Below, piece by piece: positions 13,401 to 26,900 of a stretch of DNA of 64,000 bases; the stretch's first letter is position 1, and the number at the start of each line of letters is the position of its first letter. Origin of the DNA: Pseudoroseomonas ludipueritiae (GTDB lineage: Bacteria > Pseudomonadota > Alphaproteobacteria > Acetobacterales > Acetobacteraceae). Made by a program: the position numbers and the translations under genes. The stretch covers positions 43,529 through 107,528 of the forward strand of contig NZ_JACTUZ010000003.1 of the NCBI RefSeq assembly GCF_014490445.1, given 5' to 3'. The notes beneath the pieces are model-generated. The model worked only from the letters and a program-made list of their open reading frames with translations, did no database searches and was not told where the DNA came from.

Positions 13401-13744
13401 GGCCGTCCTGCGCCGTGCCCTGGCCGCCGACCGTGATCGCTGCGGGCGGGAAGCGCCTGCCGACCTGTTGCCCCGGGGCGGCAGGCATGGCAGGGAAAGG
13501 TGAGGCGCGGTCCCTGCTGCGGCGGCTCAACGGCCCGCAAGGCCCCGATGTTCGAGGCTTTTACGCCACGCTCAGGCTCAAGAGGCAATCGGTGATCCGG
13601 TGTGCCACGCCCCACTTCAAAGGAGCAGGCGAGCAGCTTTACCGTGGAGGCCATAATACCACCCGTCCACGCTACTTTCCGCTGGCCGAAACCTCATATG
13701 AGCGACAGAAGCACTGCTGGCCCTGAAAGGTGACGAACAACACC

Positions 13745-14803
13745 ATGAATGATGCGAATATCAACGTCGCTCCAAGGCTCACGGAACTGGCGCATGGCGG
13801 TGGCTGTGGCTGCAAGCTGGCGCCGTCCGTGTTGCAGAAGTTGCTTTCCCGCCAGCCTGCGGCCCAGCCCTTCAGCCAGCTCCTCGTCGGCACGGAAACG
13901 GCGGATGACGCGGCGGTCTGGCAGGTGGACGAGAACCTGACGGTGATCGCCACCACGGATTTCTTCATGCCCATGGTGGACAACCCGCGCGATTTCGGGC
14001 GCATCGCCGCCACCAACGCGATCTCCGACATCTACGCCATGGGCGGGCGGCCCATCATGGCGCTCGCCATCCTTGGCATGCCGATCAGCAAGCTGCCGCC
14101 GGAAGTGATCGCGGAGGTGCTGGAAGGCGGCGCTTCGGTCTGCGCCGAGGCCGGCATTCCGGTCGCCGGTGGCCACTCGATCGACTCCCTGGAGCCGATC
14201 TATGGCCTGGCCGTCATCGGCCTGGGGCACCCCAAGCAGCTGCGCCGCAACAGCGGGGCACAGCCGGGCGACGCGCTGATCCTGACCAAGGGCATCGGCG
14301 TCGGCATCTATTCCGCCGCCATCAAGCGGCAGGCTTTGCCGGAAGGCGGCTATGAGGAGATGCTGGCCTCGACCACGCTGCTGAACCGCATCGGCTCCAG
14401 CCTGGCCAGCGATCCCGCCGTGCATGGCATCACCGATGTCACCGGCTTCGGCCTGCTCGGCCATGGGCTGGAGATGGCGCGCGGCTCCAGCGTCACCCTG
14501 ACCATAGAGCAGGATGCCGTGCCGCTTCTGGCCCAGGCGGAGGCCCTGGCGCAGCAGGGCTTCGTCACCGGCGCCTCGCACCGCAACTGGGACAGCTACA
14601 GCAGCGGCGTGACCCTGCCGGAAGGCTGCCCGGACTGGCGCCGCCTGCTGCTGACGGACCCGCAGACTTCAGGCGGGCTGCTGATCTCCTGCGCAGCGGA
14701 GGCAGCGCCCGCCCTGGTCGGCCGCATCCGCGAAGCTGGCTACCCGCTGGCGCGCCAGATCGGCACCATCACGGCCGGCCAGCCATGCGTGGTGGTGCGG
14801 TAA
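13745..14803 (+). CDS. selD: Selenophosphate synthase (selenide, water dikinase)
   Basis: Makes selenophosphate from selenide and ATP, the selenium donor for SelA. About 352 aa. The catalytic segment is [11 protein letters not shown], with Cys (not Sec) in the active-site position and the essential Lys. Further family motifs: [38 protein letters not shown] (short pieces), GGHSI and [12 protein letters not shown]. An in-frame GTG at 13730 is an alternative start; neither has an ideal Shine-Dalgarno. It is on the opposite strand and about 2.2 kb from selB, beyond the decayed island, so it is separately transcribed from the other sel genes. Confidence 0.95.
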
Positions 14804-15253: not shown

Positions 15254-15634
15254 TCAATGCGGCTTCAGTTCCTCCAATTGAAGCCGCAGCCCATCCGCGT
15301 TGAAGAACTCACCTTCGCGGATCAGGGTGCGGTCCTCGTGCAGCTTGCGGGTCAGGGCGCCAAGCCTCGCGCGAGCCTCGGCATCCCGCACCAGCCCTTC
15401 CCGCCCGGCACGGAAGAACACGGCGCCGGACCATGCCACCCCGGCACCGGCGAAAAGCGATACCATCTCCGGCCAGCGCGTCTCGTCCCCCACCACATGC
15501 AGCCAGGCGGAGCGCAGTGGCTCCACTGTCGTCTCGGTGATGCGCACCAGCACAAAGAGCATGGTGAAATCGCCCACCTCGCCATGGGTGCCGGCGATCC
15601 ATTCGTCGAAGTCGGTCTGGATGGGGGCGGTCAT
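15254..15634 (-). CDS. Conserved-looking hypothetical protein
   Basis: A 126-aa acidic protein without signal peptide or membrane segment, starting MTAPIQTDFDEWIAGTHGEVGD. It has mixed alpha/beta character (TMLFVLVRITETTVEPLRSAW, ending GLRLQLEELKPH). Codon usage is that of the surrounding genes (strong third-position GC), which supports it being real. It converges with the small exported protein 14 nt away. I do not recognise a family. Confidence 0.6.
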   Translation of the reverse strand: MTAPIQTDFDEWIAGTHGEVGDFTMLFVLVRITETTVEPLRSAWLHVVGDETRWPEMVSLFAGAGVAWSGAVFFRAGREGLVRDAEARARLGALTRKLHEDRTLIREGEFFNADGLRLQLEELKPH

Positions 15635-16459
15635 GATGCTGTCCCGGATGGCAAGGAATGGGCCACGATACAGAGGCTTACCAATTTGATGTTAAAAGAC
15701 ATTGTTCCGTAATACCGAAAGAAATACCCGGCCTGATTGGCCCATGCTAACCGCGAAAGCGGAGGGCGGCTGAGCAAAATCCTTGTTCAGCTTCCGCTCG
15801 CTTTGATACCGTTCCGCCCATGAGCCAATCATCCCCCTCCCCGTGTCAGCCGACAGGCGCGCGGCGATGGCAGCGACATGGGCGCTGCTGGAGCGGAGTA
15901 GCGCCTAGAGCGCCAGATGTACGGCGGCGGCAGCGCCTTGTGGTCCAGCCATGATCGACCAGAGCGAACAGGCCGCCCTTCTGGCCCAAGTTCCCGCCGT
16001 TCAGCGGGTGCCCCTCCATGACCAGCGTATTGTGGACGCCGCAGGACCGCACTGTGGCGCCACGGTATTCCCGGGCCGTCCATTCGCCTTCACCAGCCGG
16101 ACCCCAGGTGCGAGATCAGGTTGCTCATGCGGATGATCTAACCGCGCGGCAGGAGCGCGGCCATGCCAACAATTATGGCGGGTATCTCAAGGTGTAGGCT
16201 TAGGCACTATATTGAGGGATTATCGTGCGGCGATGGTGCGGAAGCAGGCCGCAGCAGGATGGGAAGCGGAGATAACTACTTCCTGCTTAGCCTCCTCGGG
16301 CAGAGTTGAGGGCGAGCAGGTAAGTGGCACCGTCATGGCTCAACGTTGCAAAGCGGCTGTCCCAAAGGTTCTGTGTCCACTTCAGGAAGGTCAGTGCGTG
16401 CGGATTGCCGCGCTTCGCCCCACGAAGACGCGGCGCCAGGATATGCATCGCTGCGAGGA
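15635..16459. other. Gene-poor stretch, probable decayed island DNA
   Basis: No intact gene is supported. Short frames on both strands lack start signals and family features, and base composition is more mixed than in neighbouring genes. One minus-strand stretch at about 15945-16070 reads CGVHNTLVMEGHPLNGGNLG followed by QKGGLFALVD, faintly like the N-terminal cluster region of molybdopterin oxidoreductases, but this is too weak for a call. Together with the integrase remnant that follows, the stretch looks like leftover inserted DNA next to tRNA-Sec. Confidence 0.5.
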
Positions 16460-16884
16460 TCAGGCCAGCGCAAGTCCAAGGCTGCGGAGCGAGTGGAGGA
16501 CGTGGTTCCCAAGGCTGAGCAGCACGTCCGCTGCGTGTACCTCTGCCCACTTCGGCGGTTCTGAGCGTACCAAACGTGGGCCATGGCTTCGAATGGCCGG
16601 GTGGTCGCGTGAGCCTTCGCCGCCCGCTTCAGCCGCTTCTCGGTGTTGAGGTCGCGCCCGGCCGCACCGGATGAGGGTGGCATCCCATTGCTGGTAGGCG
16701 CAAGCCGACGACACGCGCGGGTATTATCCTATGGGTGGTGTCTTTTATCGACCACCATGTTCGTAGCGGTAGATCCACCGCTTCGATCTATTCGGCACGG
16801 TCTGAAGATGCGGGCCGCCGCCTTCGCCCAGGCAGTAAAGCTTCTCTCCCGGTGCCGCCGCCGCACCCGCCTATCGGTCAGCAC
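16460..16884 (-). pseudogene. Decayed P4-type (DUF4102) tyrosine integrase, N-terminal part
   Basis: On the minus strand, pieces of the Arm-DNA-binding and core-N regions of P4-family integrases appear in order but in different frames and broken by stops. They are VLTDRRVR (from 16884), EKLYCLGEGGGPHLQ with RSKRWIYRYEHGGR, a stop, KTPPIG, a stop, YPRVSSA, then in another frame GRDLNTEKRLKRAAKAHATT with FEAMAHVWYAQN, and back in the second frame PPKWAEVHAADVLLSLGNHV ending at 16460. Intact relatives read LTDR.vR.akp.EK.YkL.DGGGL.L, W.yRYr.gGkeKtlsiG.YPevsLa, FE..A.eW...n...W...ha. The catalytic domain is missing. It starts about 140 nt beyond the tRNA-Sec 3' end, the classical position for an integrase using that tRNA as attachment site. 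Confidence 0.7.
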
Positions 16885-17002
16885 CGGACCTTCCGATGCC
16901 CGGTATCCCGCATAGGCCGGGTCGAATGTCCCTCAACAAAGGGCTTCAACAGGAACAAAGCGGGACATCCAATCCACCCGATGTTCTTGGACTTATTTGA
17001 GC

Positions 17003-19045
17003 CTATTTAAGATTGGGTATTGGCGGAAGAGAATGGGAGTCGAACCCACCCGGGACAGTCTCGCTGCCCCACCCGGATTTGAAGTCCGGACGCCCCACCA
17101 GGAGCGACTCTCTTCCATCCGCGGGCGGCGAGCCGAATTGGTCCGCCCGATGCGGGTTGATGCGCCGAAGATCGCCCCGGCGCAAGGTCACACCGTGGCG
17201 GTCGAAGAAGTCCAGGATCTGGATGGCGACCTTGCGGCCATTGTCCATGCGGTCCCGGAAGGCGGCGGCGGTGAAGACGCCATCTGGCGCCTGGGCGGCC
17301 ACGTCGCGCGCGATGGCCACCATCTCCGCCGTGGTGGCGCGCTGGAAGAAATGGTCATGCGCGACCTGGTCCACCCGCCCCAGCCGGGCGCAGGCCTTCA
17401 GCACGCGGCGGACCTCGGCCTCCGCCACCTCGAAATGATTGGCGATGTCGCGCACGCGCGGTGGGCGGAAGCGCGCCTCCCCGCCCAGCAGCGGCAGGAT
17501 GCGGGCGAAGAGCTCCTCATCCGCCGGGTCCAGCCGCACCTCATGGCCGGGTAGGCGCACGAAGGCGCCTTCCAGCACCACGGAGCCGGCGCGGGCCTCG
17601 CGCTCCAGCGCCGCGCGGAAGGCCGGCGCGGGCAGGAGGGGCCGCACCAGCATCCGCAACCTTTCGCGCCCGATGCCCTGGATATCCGGGTTTTCCTCAT
17701 GGAAGCGCCCGGTTTCGGCCAGCAGGCTCTGGCGGAAGGCTTCCCAGTGTTCCGGCAGCAGGGCCAGGCGCGCTCCGGCGGTCTCGATCACCACGGCCCG
17801 CAAGGCATCGGTCAGCGCCTGCCCCTCAGCGCGCGTCAGGGCATGGTCGCGGGCGAAGGCCAGGGCATCGGCATGGAAGGGCGGCAGGCGCAGCAGCCCG
17901 GCCAGGGCATCGGCCGGCGCCCGCGCCGAAAGGGCCGTGAGCTGCGCGACGCGCTCCGGCGTGCGGCGCTTGCGGGCGGGCGGGCGCAGGTCCAGGCAGC
18001 GCCCGCCGCCGATGGTCCGCTGCGCCGAGACATCCCGCAGGATGAAGCGGTCCCCAGCCGCCGCGGCGATGGGCTGGTCCAGCACCACCTGCACCAGGCC
18101 GTTGCCGCCGGGCTGCAAGGGGTCCTCCAGCGGCACCAGCCGGGCGCCGACCTCGGCGCTGGCATGGTGCAGCCGCGCCGGGAACCAGGTGCCGAGCGGC
18201 TTGGGCTCGCTGGCCAGCACGCGGAAGGTGGCGTCGATGCGGTCGGTGGGTGCGTGCAGTTCCGGTGCCAGCACCATGTCGCCGCGCCCGACGGCCTCCT
18301 TGGAAATCCCCTCCCCCACCAGGTTCAGGGCGCAGCGCTGCCCGGCGAGGCCCCGCTGGGCCGGGCGGTTCTGCGCGTGGATGGAGCGGATGCGGGCCGG
18401 GATGCCCCGTGGGCTGACCACCACCCCATCGCCCACCGCCACGGCGCCGGAGAGCACCGTGCCCGTCACCACCGTGCCGGCGCCGGAGAGGGTGAAGCTG
18501 CGGTCCACCGAAAGCCGGAAGGCGCCCTGGTCCTCCGGCTGCGCGGTCTCGTCCTCGGCCCGGGCCAGGGCGGCGCGCAATGCTTCCATCCCCGCGCCGG
18601 TGCGGGCCGAGACCGGCAGGATCGGCACATCCGCCAGGGCGGTATCGGCCACCAGGTCGCGGATCTCGGCCGTCACGGCCTCAAGCCGCGCGGCATCGGC
18701 CAGGTCGGCCTTGCTCAGCGCCACCAGCCCACGGCGGATGCCGAGCAGGTCCAGGATGGCCAGGTGCTCCCGCGTCTGCGGCATCACCCCGTCATCGGCG
18801 GCCACCACCAGCAGGGCGAAGTCGATGCCGCCAGCGCCGGCCAGCATGGTATGCACGAAGCGTTCGTGGCCCGGCACGTCTACGAAGCCGGTGACATGCT
18901 CGCCTTCCCCGGCATAGGCGAAGCCGAGATCCACCGTGATCCCGCGCGCCTTTTCTTCCTTCAGCCGGTCGGTATCGACACCGGTCAGGGCTTTGACCAG
19001 CGCCGTCTTGCCATGGTCGATATGGCCCGCGGTGCCGACGATCAT
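17003..19045 (-). CDS. selB: Selenocysteine-specific elongation factor SelB
   Basis: Brings Sec-tRNA to the ribosome at UGA codons marked by a SECIS hairpin. 680 aa. GTPase domain: [13 protein letters not shown] (P-loop) near residue 4, [23 protein letters not shown], and SKADL in the NKxD position. EF-Tu-like domains II-III follow, then C-terminal winged helices that bind SECIS (last recognisable part [19 protein letters not shown]). ATG 19045 overlaps the upstream stop as ATGA. The frame does not stop after the last winged helix. It continues through the tRNA-Sec gene (residues about 643-675, including [10 protein letters not shown] encoded by the anticodon arm) to TAG at 17005-17003, giving an extra tail of about 35-40 residues. 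Confidence 0.95.
17021..17117 (-). tRNA. selC: tRNA-Sec (anticodon UCA)
   Basis: 97 nt including an encoded CCA end (complement at 17021-17023). An acceptor stem starting GGAAGAGA pairs with the 3' side before discriminator G. The anticodon arm is CCGGA-CUUCAAA-UCCGG with anticodon UCA, the variable arm is very long, and the T arm is GGGUUCGACUCCC type. These are the marks of bacterial tRNA-Sec and closely resemble E. coli selC. SerRS charges it, SelA converts Ser to Sec, and SelB carries it to the UGA in fdnG. Unusually, the whole gene lies inside the selB reading frame on the same strand. Confidence 0.97.
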
Positions 19046-19833
19046 GCGCCCTCCTCCTCCAGCGGCAGGGCGGCCCGGCGGGCGGCCTCGGCCCTGCCGG
19101 CATCGTCCAGCCGCGCCCGTGCCGGGCCCAGGAAGGGCTGCGCCAGGCCGCTGCCACCCGCCTGCGCCCGCAGCAGCCAGGCCAGGGCGGTGACGGGATC
19201 GGCCTCCACGCCCGCGCCCAGGACATAGGCGGCGCCCAGCATGGCCTGTCCATCGGCATCGCCATGCCCGGCGCCCCGGCGCCACCAGCGCGCGGCTTCC
19301 GCCACATCCCGCTCCACCCCCAGCGCGTGGTGATAGAGCATGCCCATCCGGGTCATGGAGGAAGCGATACCCGCCTCCGCCGCCGCCAGTGCCCAGCGGT
19401 GCGCCTCCTCGGGGTCGGAGGGGATGACTTCGCCTTCCAGCAGCATCCAGCTCAGCATGTCCTGCGCCTGGGCGTCGCCCTGCTCCGCCGCCTGGCGATA
19501 GAGAGCGGCAGCGTGGGCCGGGTCGGCCTCCACCGCGTCTCCGCCGCCTTGCAGATACAGCGCGGCGAGGTTGCGCTGGCCGGCGGGATAGCCGGCCTCA
19601 GCGGCCAGGGTCAGCCATGTCAGCGCTAGGGCCGGGTTGCGTTCCACCCCCATGCCCTCGGCGAAGCAGGCGCCGATATTGGACTGCGCCCGCGCATCGC
19701 CCGCGCGCGCCAGCGGCTCCCAGAGGTTCAGTGCCTCGGCGTAATCGCCGCGCTGGAAGGCGGCCAGGGCGAGTTCCATCGGGTCGGGCGGCGGCGGCGC
19801 GGCGCGGCGCCGGAACAGGTCAAACAGCGCCAT
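19042..19833 (-). CDS. Sel1/TPR-repeat protein between selA and selB
   Basis: 263 aa, built of about five Sel1-like repeats (patterns such as [86 protein letters not shown]). Sel1 repeats form protein-binding solenoids. I chose ATG 19833 ([10 protein letters not shown]), which overlaps the selA end by 14 nt; the 3' end overlaps the selB start as ATGA. Such tight coupling on both sides suggests co-expression with Sec synthesis. No signal peptide, so cytoplasmic. No defined role in selenium metabolism is known to me. Confidence 0.85.
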
Positions 19834-21214
19834 GGCTGGAAGGCAGCTTCGCGAGGTTGGAGAGGAAGCCCGCCTCATCCGTCAGGCAGCGCAGGTCGAG
19901 CACCAGCGCCCCGTCCCGCAGCCGGCCAATCACCGGCCGTGGCAGGTCGCGCAGCGCCGCGGCCAATGCTTCCAGCGCCCGCCCACCGGGCGCGGCCAGG
20001 CGCAGGCCGAAGCTGGGCAGCGTGTCCAGCGGCAGGGCGCCGGAGCCGATCTGGCTGTGGCAGGGCATCGCCTCCACCGCCACACCCGGCGGCAGGAGGC
20101 CGGCCAGGGCGGGCAGGATGCGCCGCGCCTGCGCCTCGATCTCCGCCTGCGGGCGGGAGAGCAGCCGCAGGGTCGGCAGCCGCTCGGCCAGCCGCTGCGG
20201 GTCGCGGTACAGCTTCAGCGTCGCTTCCAGCGCGGCCAGGCGGATCTTGTCCACACGCAGGGCTCGCTTCATCGGGTTGCGGTTGATGGCCTCGATCAGC
20301 TCCCGCCGGCCGACGATGAAGCCCGCCTGCGGCCCACCCAGAAGCTTGTCGCCGGAGAAGGTGACAAGGTCCGCCCCCTCCTCCACCGCCTCCCGCACCG
20401 TGGGCTCCCGCGCCATGCCATAGGGCGAGAGATCGATCAGCGTGCCGGAACCGAGGTCGTTCAGCATGGGCACCCCGGCCTCATGCGCGATGGCGGCCAG
20501 GGCGGCGCCACCCACTTCGCTGGTGAAGCCCTCGATACGGTAGTTGGAGGTATGGACCTTCAGCACCAGCCCGGTCTCGGGGTGCAGCGCCGCCTTGTAG
20601 TCCTTCGGGTGGGTGCGGTTGGTGGTGCCGACCTCCACCAGGCGCACACCGGCGCGCGCCATGATGTCCGGCATGCGGAAGGCGCCGCCGATCTCGATCA
20701 GCTCGCCACGGGAGACAATGGCCTCCCGCCCCTCGCCCAGCGTGTTCAGCGCGATCAGCACGGCGGCGGCATTGTTGTTGACCACCGTGGCGTCCTCCGC
20801 CCCGGTCAGTTCCCGCAGCAGTTCGCGCAGATGGTCGTCCCGCTCCCCGCGCTTGCCGGTGTCGAGGTCGAATTCCAGCGCGACGGCATCGCGCATGGCG
20901 GCGGTCGCGGCTTCCACCGCCGCCTCCGCCAGCAGGGCGCGGCCGAGGTTGGTGTGCAGCACCGTGCCGGTCAGGTTGAACAAGGGGCGCAGGCCGGAGC
21001 GGTCCCGCGCCTCCAGCAGCGCGCCGGCGCGGGCCAGGATGGCGGCGGGCTCCGGCAGCGGCTCCGGCGCCTCGGCACGGATGGCGGCGAGCACCTGCCG
21101 CAGGGCGGCGCTCACCTCGGCATGGCCGAACCTGTCGGTGACGCCGGCACCTTCCGCCATGCCCAGCAGGCGGTCCACCGATGGCAGCGCCCGCAGGCCA
21201 GCCTTGCCCAGCAC
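19820..21214 (-). CDS. selA: L-seryl-tRNA(Sec) selenium transferase
   Basis: PLP enzyme of 464 aa that turns Ser-tRNA-Sec into Sec-tRNA-Sec using selenophosphate. Family marks: [11 protein letters not shown] at the N-terminus, [42 protein letters not shown]-type segment, and [12 protein letters not shown] with the PLP-binding Lys. The start codon is GTG, 4 nt after the fdhE stop, and the stop overlaps the next gene. Length matches E. coli SelA (463 aa). Confidence 0.96.
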
Positions 21215-21218
21215 CGCC

Positions 21219-22145
21219 TCAGTACCCGATCAGGAAAGGATCGAAGCCAGCGCGGCGGTAGTCGGTCTCCCGCATCAGCAGGTCCAGCCCCAGGCTGGCC
21301 ACGTCATCGGCCACCGCTTCCAGCGCCGGGTTCTTGTTGGCGTAGAAGATCTTCACCCAACTGCGGCAACTGTCGCAGGTCTCGGCCTTCACCGTCGCCC
21401 CCGCGCCGCCATCCTCGGCTTCCTTGTAGCCGACGCCCTTGGTGGAGCCGCAGGCCAGGCACTTGATGCGGACCTCGTTCCAGCCGGTGTTGCAGAGCGA
21501 GCAGACGGCATAGCGCGCGCCTTCCGCCCCCTGGTGCCCAACCACGATGGAGGAAACCGGCGGGCCGCCGCAGGCCGGGCAGACGCCTATTTCCACCGGC
21601 ACCAGCTTCTCCGCATCCAGCGTCGAGGCCAGCCGCGCCGCATGGACCTGCGCGGCGGCGGAGAGGAACAGGTGCTGCGGCAGGCTTTCCACCGGAATGG
21701 AATCGGCCATGACATTGCCGATCATCTCGTCCAGCACGGAAGGCTCGGCGCGGCGCAGGTCCTCCAGCGCCGCGGCGGCCTGGGGCGGCATCTCCAGCCC
21801 CGCCGCCGCGTCCAGGAAGGCGGCGATGGTGGCGCGCAATTCGGGCGAGGCGCCCATGGCCGCGCGGTCCAGCGGCGGCATGGTATTGGCGCGGGCCCTT
21901 TCCCGCTGCTCCGCCGGGACGGGGGATGGCGGCGGCAGGCTCTCGGCGAGCTGCTGCTGCACCCGGGCGATGCCGCCGAGGAAGCGGAGGTAGGGCGCCA
22001 TGGCGCTTCCCTCGGCCAGCACCGCGAAGCGCTCGGCGCGCCGCCCGAAGAGCACGGCCGGGTCAGGCAACAGGGCAAAGGCGGGCTTGACCAGACGCCC
22101 GATCATCGAGGGATCGGGCTGAAGACCATGAAAACCGGACATCAC
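21219..22145 (-). CDS. fdhE: Formate dehydrogenase accessory protein FdhE
   Basis: Cytoplasmic rubredoxin-like maturation factor of 308 aa that binds iron and interacts with the FdnG catalytic subunit before Tat export. Four CxxC pairs are visible: [20 protein letters not shown] and CDSCRSW, as in E. coli FdhE. It lies between the formate dehydrogenase genes and selA, 102 nt after fdnI, with a strong hairpin in the gap. Two adjacent ATGs begin the frame, so the exact start may shift by one residue. Confidence 0.94.
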
Positions 22146-23932: not shown

Positions 23933-26900
23933 GCCACCACTCCCGGTGCCGTGGAGGGCTCGATGTTCACGAGGAACGCCTTGTAGCCCGGCGTCTCGAT
24001 ATTCGCCTCGCCCACGAAGGGAGACAGCGAGTTCGGGCCGAAGCCCTTCTTCGCCGCGCCCACGAAGCCCCAGTGCAGCGGGATGCCGATCACGTGCACG
24101 GTCTTGCCGTCACAGATCAGCGGCCGGATGCGCTTGGTGACCAGGGCCTTGGCCCGGATCGAGCCACGCTTGGACCACACCCGCACCCAGCCGCCACGCT
24201 CGATGCCCTTCTCCCGCGCCAGCTCTTCCGACAGCTCGACAAAGAACTCGGGCTGCAGCGCGGCATTCACCCGGTTGTGCTTCGTCCAGTAGTGGAAGTG
24301 CTCGGTCAGGCGGTAGGAGGTCGCCGCATAGGGGAACTCCTCCGAGGTGCCGAACTGCGCCACGTCGCTCTCGAAGATGCGGCCCACCGGGTTGCCGCGC
24401 ATCTTCGGGTTGAAGACATTGGCGATGGGGCTCTCGAAGGGCTCCATATGCGCCGGGAAGGGTCCGTCGCGCAGCATGCCGCGGGCGAAGAGCCGCGACA
24501 CGCCTTCCTGGTTCATGATGAAGGGCATGACATCCTGCGGCTTGGCGTTCACGCCAATGTCGGGGACATCGTAGCCCGTCCACTTCGTGCCGTCCCATTC
24601 CAGCAGCTTGCGGGACGGATCCCAGGGCTTGCCGTTCAGGTCCGCCGAGGCGCGGTTGTACAGGGTGCGGCGGTTCAGCGGCCAGGCGAAGGTCCAGCCC
24701 AGATAGGCGCCGGTCCCGTCCGGGTCGTTGTTGTCCCGCCGGGCCATGTTGTTGCCCGCCTCGTTGAAGCAGCCGGAATAGATCCAGCAGCCGGACATGG
24801 TGGAGCCGTCGTCACGCAACTGCGTGAAGTTCAGCACCTGCTTGCCCGCCTCGACCAGGATCTTGGAGGGATCGGCGGGATCACGCAGGTCGGTCAGCGC
24901 CCGGCCGTTGATCTCCTTCGCCAGTTCCTCCGGCTCCGGCTCGTTGGGGTCGTGATACTCCCAGGAGAGGTTCAGGATGGGGTCGGGGAAGGCACCCCCT
25001 TCCTTCCGGTACATCTCCCGCATGCGCAGGAAGATCTGCGCCATGATCCAGGTGTCGGCCTTGGCCTCGCCCGGGGGCGTGGCGGCTGGCCAGAACCACT
25101 GGATCCAGCGGCCCGAGTTGGTCAGCGAGCCCTGGTCCTCCGCGAAGCAGCGGGTGGGAAGCTGGAACACCTCGGTCTGGATGGAAGCCGTGTCGACGTC
25201 GTTGTACTCGCCGTGGTTCTCCCAGAACCGCGCCGTCTCGGTCTCCAGCGGGTCCATCGTGATCAGGAACTTCAGCTTGGACAGCCCGGCCGTGACCTTG
25301 CCCCGGTTGGGGAAGGCGAGCACGGGGTTGAAGCCCTGGCAGATGTAGCCGTTGACGCGGCCGTGGTTCATCAGCTCGAACATGCGCAGCACGTCATAGG
25401 CCGGCACGTCGAGCTTGGAGAGGTAGTCGTAGGCCCAGCCGTTCTCCGCCTGCGCCGCGTCGCCATACATGGCCTTCATGAAGGAGACCATGAACTTGCG
25501 GTAGTTCTGCCAGTAGGAGGTCTGGCCCGGCCGCAGCGGCTTGAACTGCCGCGACTTCATGTAGGTCTCGAAGTCCGGCTCCTTCTCCGTCGGCATGTTC
25601 AGGTAGCCGGTGAGAAGGTGGGACATCAGGCCCAGGTCGGTCAGGCCCTGGATGTTGGAATGCCCGCGCAGCGCGTTCATGCCACCGCCGCGCACGCCGA
25701 TATTGCCCAGGATGAGCTGCAGCATGGCCATGGCGCGGATGTTCTGCGCGCCGTGCGAATGCTGCGTCCAGCCGAGGGCGTACATCGACGTCATCGTCTT
25801 GGTGGGCGAGGAGCATTCCGAGATCATCTGCGCGACGCGGAGGAACTTCTCCTTCGGCGTGCCGCAGATGCGCTCCACCAACTCCGGCGTATAGGCCGAG
25901 ACGTGTTCCTTCAGCAGGTTCCAGACGCAGCGCGGGTGCTGCAGCGTCGGGTCCGTGACGGCATAGCCGTCCTCGCCGATGACATAGTCCCAGCTCGACC
26001 GGTCGTAGTCGCGCTTGTCCTCGTCATAGCCCGTGAAGAGGCCGTCACTGTACCCGAAGCCGTCCTTGATGATGTAGGAGGCGTTGGTGAAGGCCTTCGT
26101 GTACTCCCACTGCACCTTGTCGTTGGCGATGCAGTAGTTGATCACCCCCAGCAGGAAGGCGATGTCCGTGCCCTGGCGAATGGGCGCGTAGAAGTCCGCC
26201 ACGGACGCCGTGCGGGTGAACCGCGGGTCCACGACGATGAGTTTGGCGCCGCGGTGGGCTTTCGCCTCCGTGACCCATTTGAAGCCGCAGGGGTGCGCTT
26301 CCGCCGCATTGCCGCCCATGACGACGACAAGGTCGGTGTTCTTGATGTCGGTCCAAGCATTCGTCATCGCTCCACGACCAAAAGTCGGGCCCAAACTGGA
26401 CACCGTGGGGCCGTGTCAGACGCGCGCCTGGTTATCGAATCCTACAATTCCGAGGGCCTTGGCGACCTTGAAGGTGGTCCAGGCCGTCTCGTTGGTGGTG
26501 GCGGAAGCCGCCAACATGCCCGTGGTGGTCCAGCGGTTGACCGCCAGCCCGTCCGCGTTCTTCGCCAGGAAGTTCGCGTCGCGGTCGTCCTTCATCAGGC
26601 GCGCGATCCGATCCAGGGCTGCGTCCCAGGAGATCGGCTCGAACTTGTCGGACCCCGGCTTGCGGTGCATCGGCTGCTTCAGCCGCGTCTCGGCCTTCAC
26701 GAAGTCCTTCAGCGCGGCGCCCTTGGGGCAGAGCGTGCCGAGGTTCGTCGGGTGGTCGACGTCGCCCTCGATATGGACGACCTCCGCGCGCTCGCCCTTC
26801 CGCACATCACCCTTGGAATAGATGATGATGCCACAGGCCACGGAGCAATAGGTGCAGGTGTTACGCGTCTCGGTCGTGTTTGCCAGCTTCAAGGGGCGGA

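Follow-up and report, generated by a model that had tools for sequence, protein, structure and literature searches.

Whole tRNA-Sec genes nested within selB are known from Alphaproteobacteria, including other Roseomonas lineages, and were reported by Mukai in 2021 as the first tRNA genes lying whole inside a protein reading frame in bacteria (PMC8124441). Azorhizobium caulinodans provided the first published case. In these loci the complete tRNA-Sec is on the same strand as selB, is 96 nt long, begins with GGA (Gly) and ends with CCA (Pro), and selA and formate dehydrogenase genes are found nearby. It was noted in that paper that a tRNA length divisible by three may aid frame-keeping, a constraint that was not tested there, and that "in many cases", though not in all, the selB stop falls on the first codon of ORF1 or ORF2. 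A hypothesis was also put forward in which processing of the tRNA leaves a non-stop selB mRNA and thereby represses SelB. According to the legend of its Figure 4, other Roseomonas lineages retain overlapping selBC genes. The finding is repeated in passages of two reviews (PMC9312934 and PMC13188914). No experimental test of the non-stop/processing model was found in searches of open-licence papers.

Two other systems resemble these loci. Remnant tRNA-Sec selB genes on Sinorhizobium meliloti pSymA and in Rhizobium sp. NFR07 have DNA inserted at the selB-selC junction and a new selB stop (PMC8124441). The mitochondrial tRNA-Lys of Armadillidium lies in direct orientation in the reading frame of cox1, and a similar exclusion has been hypothesized for it (cited in PMC8124441), but that genome is a compact animal mitochondrial one and the case is neither bacterial nor related to selenocysteine.

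The window described here is the whole stretch of DNA that was analyzed, 64,000 nucleotides from Pseudoroseomonas ludipueritiae. It contains a further member of this known arrangement, with a broken 3' junction. The complete same-strand tRNA-Sec of 96 nt, the GGA and CCA codons and the neighboring selA and formate dehydrogenase genes are all present, and the same non-stop/processing model can be applied. Unlike many of those loci, the window has a selB stop that misses the next start codon, and 1386 nt separate tRNA-Sec from ORF2. The junction resembles that of the remnant genes in having inserted DNA and a new selB stop. The insertion there cut the tRNA, whereas in the window it follows CCA and leaves the tRNA intact. 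A first-pass annotation of the sequence had proposed that a single RNA molecule can yield either SelB or its tRNA but not both, as a possible control of their balance; this is the model already published in PMC8124441 and is not new. Two points are absent from that annotation: the overlap of nested selB frames with a downstream start, and the cutting of the window's junction by other DNA.

The selenium locus of the window

The features of the locus are collected in Table 1. The selB frame reads through the entire tRNA-Sec gene with no stop after the last winged helix, as ARAGORN, Rfam and translation confirm. The overlap described in the first-pass annotation is thus correct, but the tRNA is 96 nt long and not 97, and the TAG starts at the 16th base after CCA, with 15 nt between them. 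ARAGORN calls a single tRNA in the window, a tRNA-SeC with anticodon TCA, and the call is supported by an Rfam match (RF01852, 83.5 bits, 17025-17116). The NCBIfam selB profile TIGR00475 matches residues 1-628 of the frame with 420 bits. Profile matches give the EF-Tu-like GTPase, the beta-barrel and the C-terminal winged helices expected of SelB; SelB-wing_3 matches residues 589-628, and the last winged-helix match ends at 628.

Table 1. Features of the selenium locus, in window positions
Feature	Position	Strand	Remarks
selD	13730..14803	+	NCBIfam match
ORF2, 126 aa (TDFDEW...)	15254..15634	-	In relatives follows tRNA-Sec with ATGA overlap
Other, apparently decayed DNA, 1386 nt	15635..17020		Between tRNA-Sec and the ORF2 start
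IPNLK (15 nt after CCA) and stop TAG	17003..17020	-	Inside the DNA separating the tRNA from ORF2
tRNA-Sec (selC), CCA encoded	17021..17116	-	96 nt, 32 in-frame residues (644-675)
Linker GSPPAD, six codons (residues 638-643)	17117..17134	-	Follows the last winged helix and leads into the tRNA
selB coding frame	19045 to 17003	-	ATG 19045, TAG 17005-17003; 680 codons; translation without internal stop
Sel1-repeat gene	19042..19878	-	Between selA and selB; stop overlaps selB start as ATGA (from coordinates)
selA	19820..21214	-	Profile matches
fdhE	21219..22145	-	Profile matches
SECIS_3 element	26363..26421	-	Covers a UGA codon (26418-26416) that is in frame in a gene for a formate dehydrogenase alpha subunit (RVUHGPTV)

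The locus is linked to selA, fdhE, selD and a selenocysteine formate dehydrogenase, in which the SECIS_3 element covers the in-frame UGA. The 400 residues after this UGA match the formate dehydrogenase-N alpha profile TIGR01553 of NCBIfam with 603 bits, which is under the whole-protein cut-off because only part of the protein was given. The genes fdhE, selA, sel1, selB and selC probably form one operon. A search for a sigma-70-like consensus promoter gave no match in 16900-17700, although promoters of this class can diverge, and the minimum-energy fold of a 261-nt context includes the arms of tRNA-Sec. Since the tRNA-Sec of the window is open in all three frames, nesting at this locus alone means little. 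It is more than chance because the frame is conserved in relatives.

Distribution of nested tRNA-Sec genes

The closest SelB relatives are from Roseomonas and its kin, among the best 80 of 312 ranked with the tail in the query, and 58 of these 80 are also nested in phase 0. This ranking is biased by the tail, and the main counts were therefore taken from samples in which tRNA-Sec was found first. Of 299 genomes from the window's family 91 had it, as did 55 of 385 from its class and 30 of 247, 41 of 199 and 7 of 248 from the families of a Phyllobacterium, a Microvirga and a Paracoccus, the centers of these last three having been taken from the list of SelB relatives. The five samples hold 223 tRNA-Sec loci, with the window's own counted once and some genomes recurring between samples. 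An upstream SelB on the same strand was detected with a SelB C-terminal profile at 118 of the 223 loci: 49 are nested, 6 have the selB stop inside the tRNA, 60 have it before the tRNA and 3 have SelB more than 400 nt away. For another 104 no SelB was detected upstream within the sequence retrieved, a count that is an upper bound because some of these sequences were short, and 1 had no ARAGORN call.

Nesting is concentrated in some families. It is found at 11 of the 35 loci with SelB upstream in the window's own family, 2 of 28 in the class, 13 of 19 in the Phyllobacterium sample, 23 of 31 in the Microvirga sample and none of 5 in the Paracoccus sample. The 49 of 118 is not a class-wide rate because the families were picked for known nested or adjacent relatives, and the window and three center genomes were counted. 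The phylum-wide sample gave 51 tRNA-Sec loci other than the window's own, of which 29 were classified; SelB was upstream in 10 (3 of the same class and 7 of other classes), and the 1 nested locus is of the same class. Outside Alphaproteobacteria none of the 7 loci with SelB upstream was nested, though the profile, made from relatives of the window's SelB, may fail to detect others.

A quick SelB tree of 166 rows was made from the named list of 80 and the tRNA-first loci. The short row L296 was dropped, and the 24 loci common to the two sets, nested or not, were merged as duplicates. This tree requires at least 18 gains or losses of nesting. Together with the 60 of 118 loci that stop before the tRNA and the 2 of 28 nested class-wide, this indicates that nesting is dispensable and not general. 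The survey of SelB C-termini for tails coded by tRNA-Sec, which the first-pass annotation had proposed, found them in 49 of the 118 tRNA-first loci with SelB upstream, 48 of them in phase 0. The annotation was wrong in taking the arrangement to be unexamined (PMC8124441). A sequencing error that hides a selB stop, also raised in the annotation, is ruled out, as 47 other tRNA-first loci share the phase-0 nesting.

Constraint on the reading frame

The selB frame enters the tRNA in phase 0 in 48 of the 49 nested tRNA-first loci; the exception, L245, enters in another phase. Openness of the tRNA itself is weak evidence since 35 of the 49 nested tRNAs are open in all three frames (49 in phase 0, 44 at an offset of one and 40 at an offset of two), and a test of the frame was made instead. 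Linker length was measured from a conserved FFD motif up to the first base of the tRNA, and its changes were counted on the SelB tree. The 49 nested tRNA-first rows have at least 29 changes of linker length, one of which changes the frame, whereas the 59 tRNA-first rows with the stop before the tRNA have at least 46, of which 24 change the frame (Fisher p = 8e-6, with changes treated as independent). When the second group is limited to the 49 rows with a stop within 60 nt of the tRNA, 22 of at least 37 changes alter the frame (p = 1e-6). Over all 89 nested rows, which include the named loci, at least 40 changes of length are found, with one of frame. In nearest non-overlapping pairs that differ in length the frame changes in 0 of 16 nested pairs vs 9 of 14 stop-before pairs (p = 1.4e-4), and in 0 of 21 vs 14 of 17 when the named loci are added. 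No single phase prevails among the 50 loci whose selB stop lies at most 60 nt ahead of the tRNA (16, 20 and 14).

Stops in the tRNA do not account for the constraint because about 77% of linker frameshifts in the 89 nested rows would still read through it. The comparison adds evidence that this frame is maintained across the tRNA by selection. Together with those on the stop codon, the frame statistics are, to our knowledge, the first quantitative argument for selected read-through, and they help to separate four possibilities: a function of the tail, a bridge for translational coupling, control of balance and passive packing.

The stop codon, the linker and the tail

In the selB frame of nested rows the first stop comes within 15 codons after CCA in 96% of the 52 rows whose frame ends on a downstream start and in 100% of the 37 others. 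The corresponding values are 8-30% for the other two frames of the nested rows, where the median distance to the first stop is 25 to 138.5 codons, and 26-42% for the three frames of 69 stop-before rows. The peptide shows no comparable conservation. In 12 pairs with 67 linker differences, pN/pS is 0.82 in the linker vs 0.17 in the SelB body. Changes in the tRNA fall at codon position 3 in 64 of 224 cases in nested rows vs 108 of 308 in stop-before rows, which is not a shift (p = 0.13). The stop data, the linker pN/pS and the absence of a third-position shift lead us to conclude that frame and nearby stop are conserved and the peptide is not. Selection on the amino acids of the tail was considered and has no support, as the linker is near neutral and tRNA changes do not favor silent positions.

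The downstream gene and the broken junction

In 52 of the 89 nested rows the selB stop overlaps the start of a downstream ORF that has 60 codons or more, in 43 of them as ATGA. The other 37, including the window, do not overlap such an ORF; these uncoupled rows have at least 14 changes of linker length and no change of frame. At least 17 changes between the coupled and uncoupled states are needed on the tree. A relative of ORF2 starts within 45 nt after CCA in 23 nested rows. The ORFs of 31 other nested loci, starting within 160 nt, form a second cluster unrelated to ORF2, which is probably the ORF1 of Mukai.

ORF2 is a conserved protein in these selenium operons (alignment A1). No family for it was found in Pfam, NCBIfam or PHROGs. 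Its sequence has no match in the PDB at E <= 1, and its predicted fold has no structural match at E <= 0.001; the best structure model has a mean pLDDT of 89 and the other four have 78-84. ORF2 is present in 5 of 17 genomes of the window's genus. In the four other genomes selB runs through tRNA-Sec in phase 0 and stops in an ATGA 15 or 24 nt past CCA, on the start of ORF2, and the distance from CCA to ORF2 is 14-23 nt vs 1386 nt in the window. The window's selB stop does not lie on the start of ORF1 or ORF2 (the ORF2 start is at 15634), an overlap that is not essential to the nested arrangement. An 87-base stretch of the separating DNA has an 81% copy elsewhere in the genome. Ten open stretches of this DNA gave no Pfam match over the cut-off, and no match was found in plasmids. 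Because relatives in the genus keep the ATGA junction and the TAG of the window sits in the 1386-nt DNA, the coupling to ORF2 appears to have been lost here, and the present TAG is probably secondary and supplied by the other DNA.

Why is tRNA-Sec kept in the selB frame?

We lean, with slightly better than even confidence, to the explanation that selC is nested in selB to let a single transcript serve either as a source of tRNA or for translation of SelB and the downstream gene, with selection acting on the frame and the stop. Should the tRNA fold and be excised by RNase P and 3' processing, what is left on its 5' side would be a selB message that lacks a stop. If ribosomes come first, the tRNA would be translated as a passive tail of 32 residues on SelB, and termination would follow within a few codons of CCA. 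In many lineages this stop falls on the start of the downstream gene, which would couple that gene to selB. Selection would then act on the open frame and the nearby stop and not on the peptide. In the window the downstream coupling would have been lost to DNA directly after CCA, with the nested tRNA and the frame remaining. Passage of ribosomes through the tRNA, a premise of the first-pass annotation, is supported by the conserved frame and nearby stop in the survey, and the comparative evidence argues well that ribosomes traverse tRNA-Sec in the selB frame. Processing of a shared transcript, mutual exclusion, and coupling or balance of expression may all occur, and may bring a regulatory benefit.

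It could also be that selB lost its stop beside selC and acquired a harmless tail, with no regulation, and that the other frames are avoided since they would burden SelB with a long, harmful extension or lead into the following gene. Such passive packing is in line with the frequent switches into and out of nesting and with linker residues that are nearly free, and the distant stops of the other frames would alone select against frameshifts. Linker stops should in that case be tolerated as well, yet no nonsense difference was seen among 191 substitutions in 22 close pairs, where 3.9 are expected under equal mutation (P = 0.02), an expectation that a GC-rich mutation bias would lower. The stop also stays near CCA in every uncoupled row, and we think packing by itself rather unlikely. 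A role in SelB for the 32 residues coded by the tRNA would account for the phase shared by 48 of 49 nested loci, which gives them almost identical peptides. However, the peptide is dictated by the tRNA, whose changes do not favor silent positions, the linker evolves almost neutrally and some relatives have no tail, all of which makes a functional tail very improbable.

Another reading is that the sole selected purpose of the overlap is to carry ribosomes over the tRNA to the downstream start, with no balance between tRNA and SelB. The overlap with a downstream start in 52 of 89 rows fits this, as do the at least two unrelated families of downstream genes (23 loci with ORF2-like genes and 31 in the second cluster), the frequency of a co-directional ORF beginning within 100 nt (72 of 88 nested vs 44 of 68 stop-before rows), and the sel1-selB junction, which is likewise an ATGA overlap. 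The 37 uncoupled rows, to which the window belongs, argue against it, as they kept the frame through at least 14 changes of length; their coupling may, though, have been lost recently, given the frequent changes of that state. We hold this reading tentatively, as a serious possibility of less than even weight. The explanation based on one transcript with alternative uses is favored by the shared phase, the frame and stop statistics, the downstream overlaps, the linker pN/pS and the lack of linker nonsense, as well as by the absence of a sigma-70-like consensus in 16900-17700 and the tRNA-Sec arms in the 261-nt fold. It is weakened by the lability and dispensability of nesting, the lack of a preference for position 3, the phase of L245 and the detachment of ORF2 in the window. 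The proposal that ribosomes routinely translate tRNA-Sec, with a selected frame and stop and an irrelevant peptide, as a translated bridge that limits SelB output and feeds the next gene, seems to us about evenly balanced.

Other variants of the selB-selC junction

In four loci of the window's family (L039, L045, L059 and L082) selB runs into the tRNA in a phase other than 0 and terminates within it, at base 54. This partial overlap differs from those described in the text of PMC8124441. The selB stop codon directly abuts the first base of tRNA-Sec in 10 of the 69 stop-before rows (L013, L260, L264, L274, L301, L121, L122, L126, L154 and L169), a state with at least 6 changes on the tree; a message cut there by RNase P would end exactly with its stop codon. 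One locus, L089, which is the same as L106 of Pararoseomonas baculiformis, has a tRNA-Sec that is also nested in selB and has the anticodon loop CGTCACG vs CTTCAAA. In standard tRNA numbering this places G for U33 and C for A37. Two possible extra pairs in this loop leave a three-base loop, TCA.
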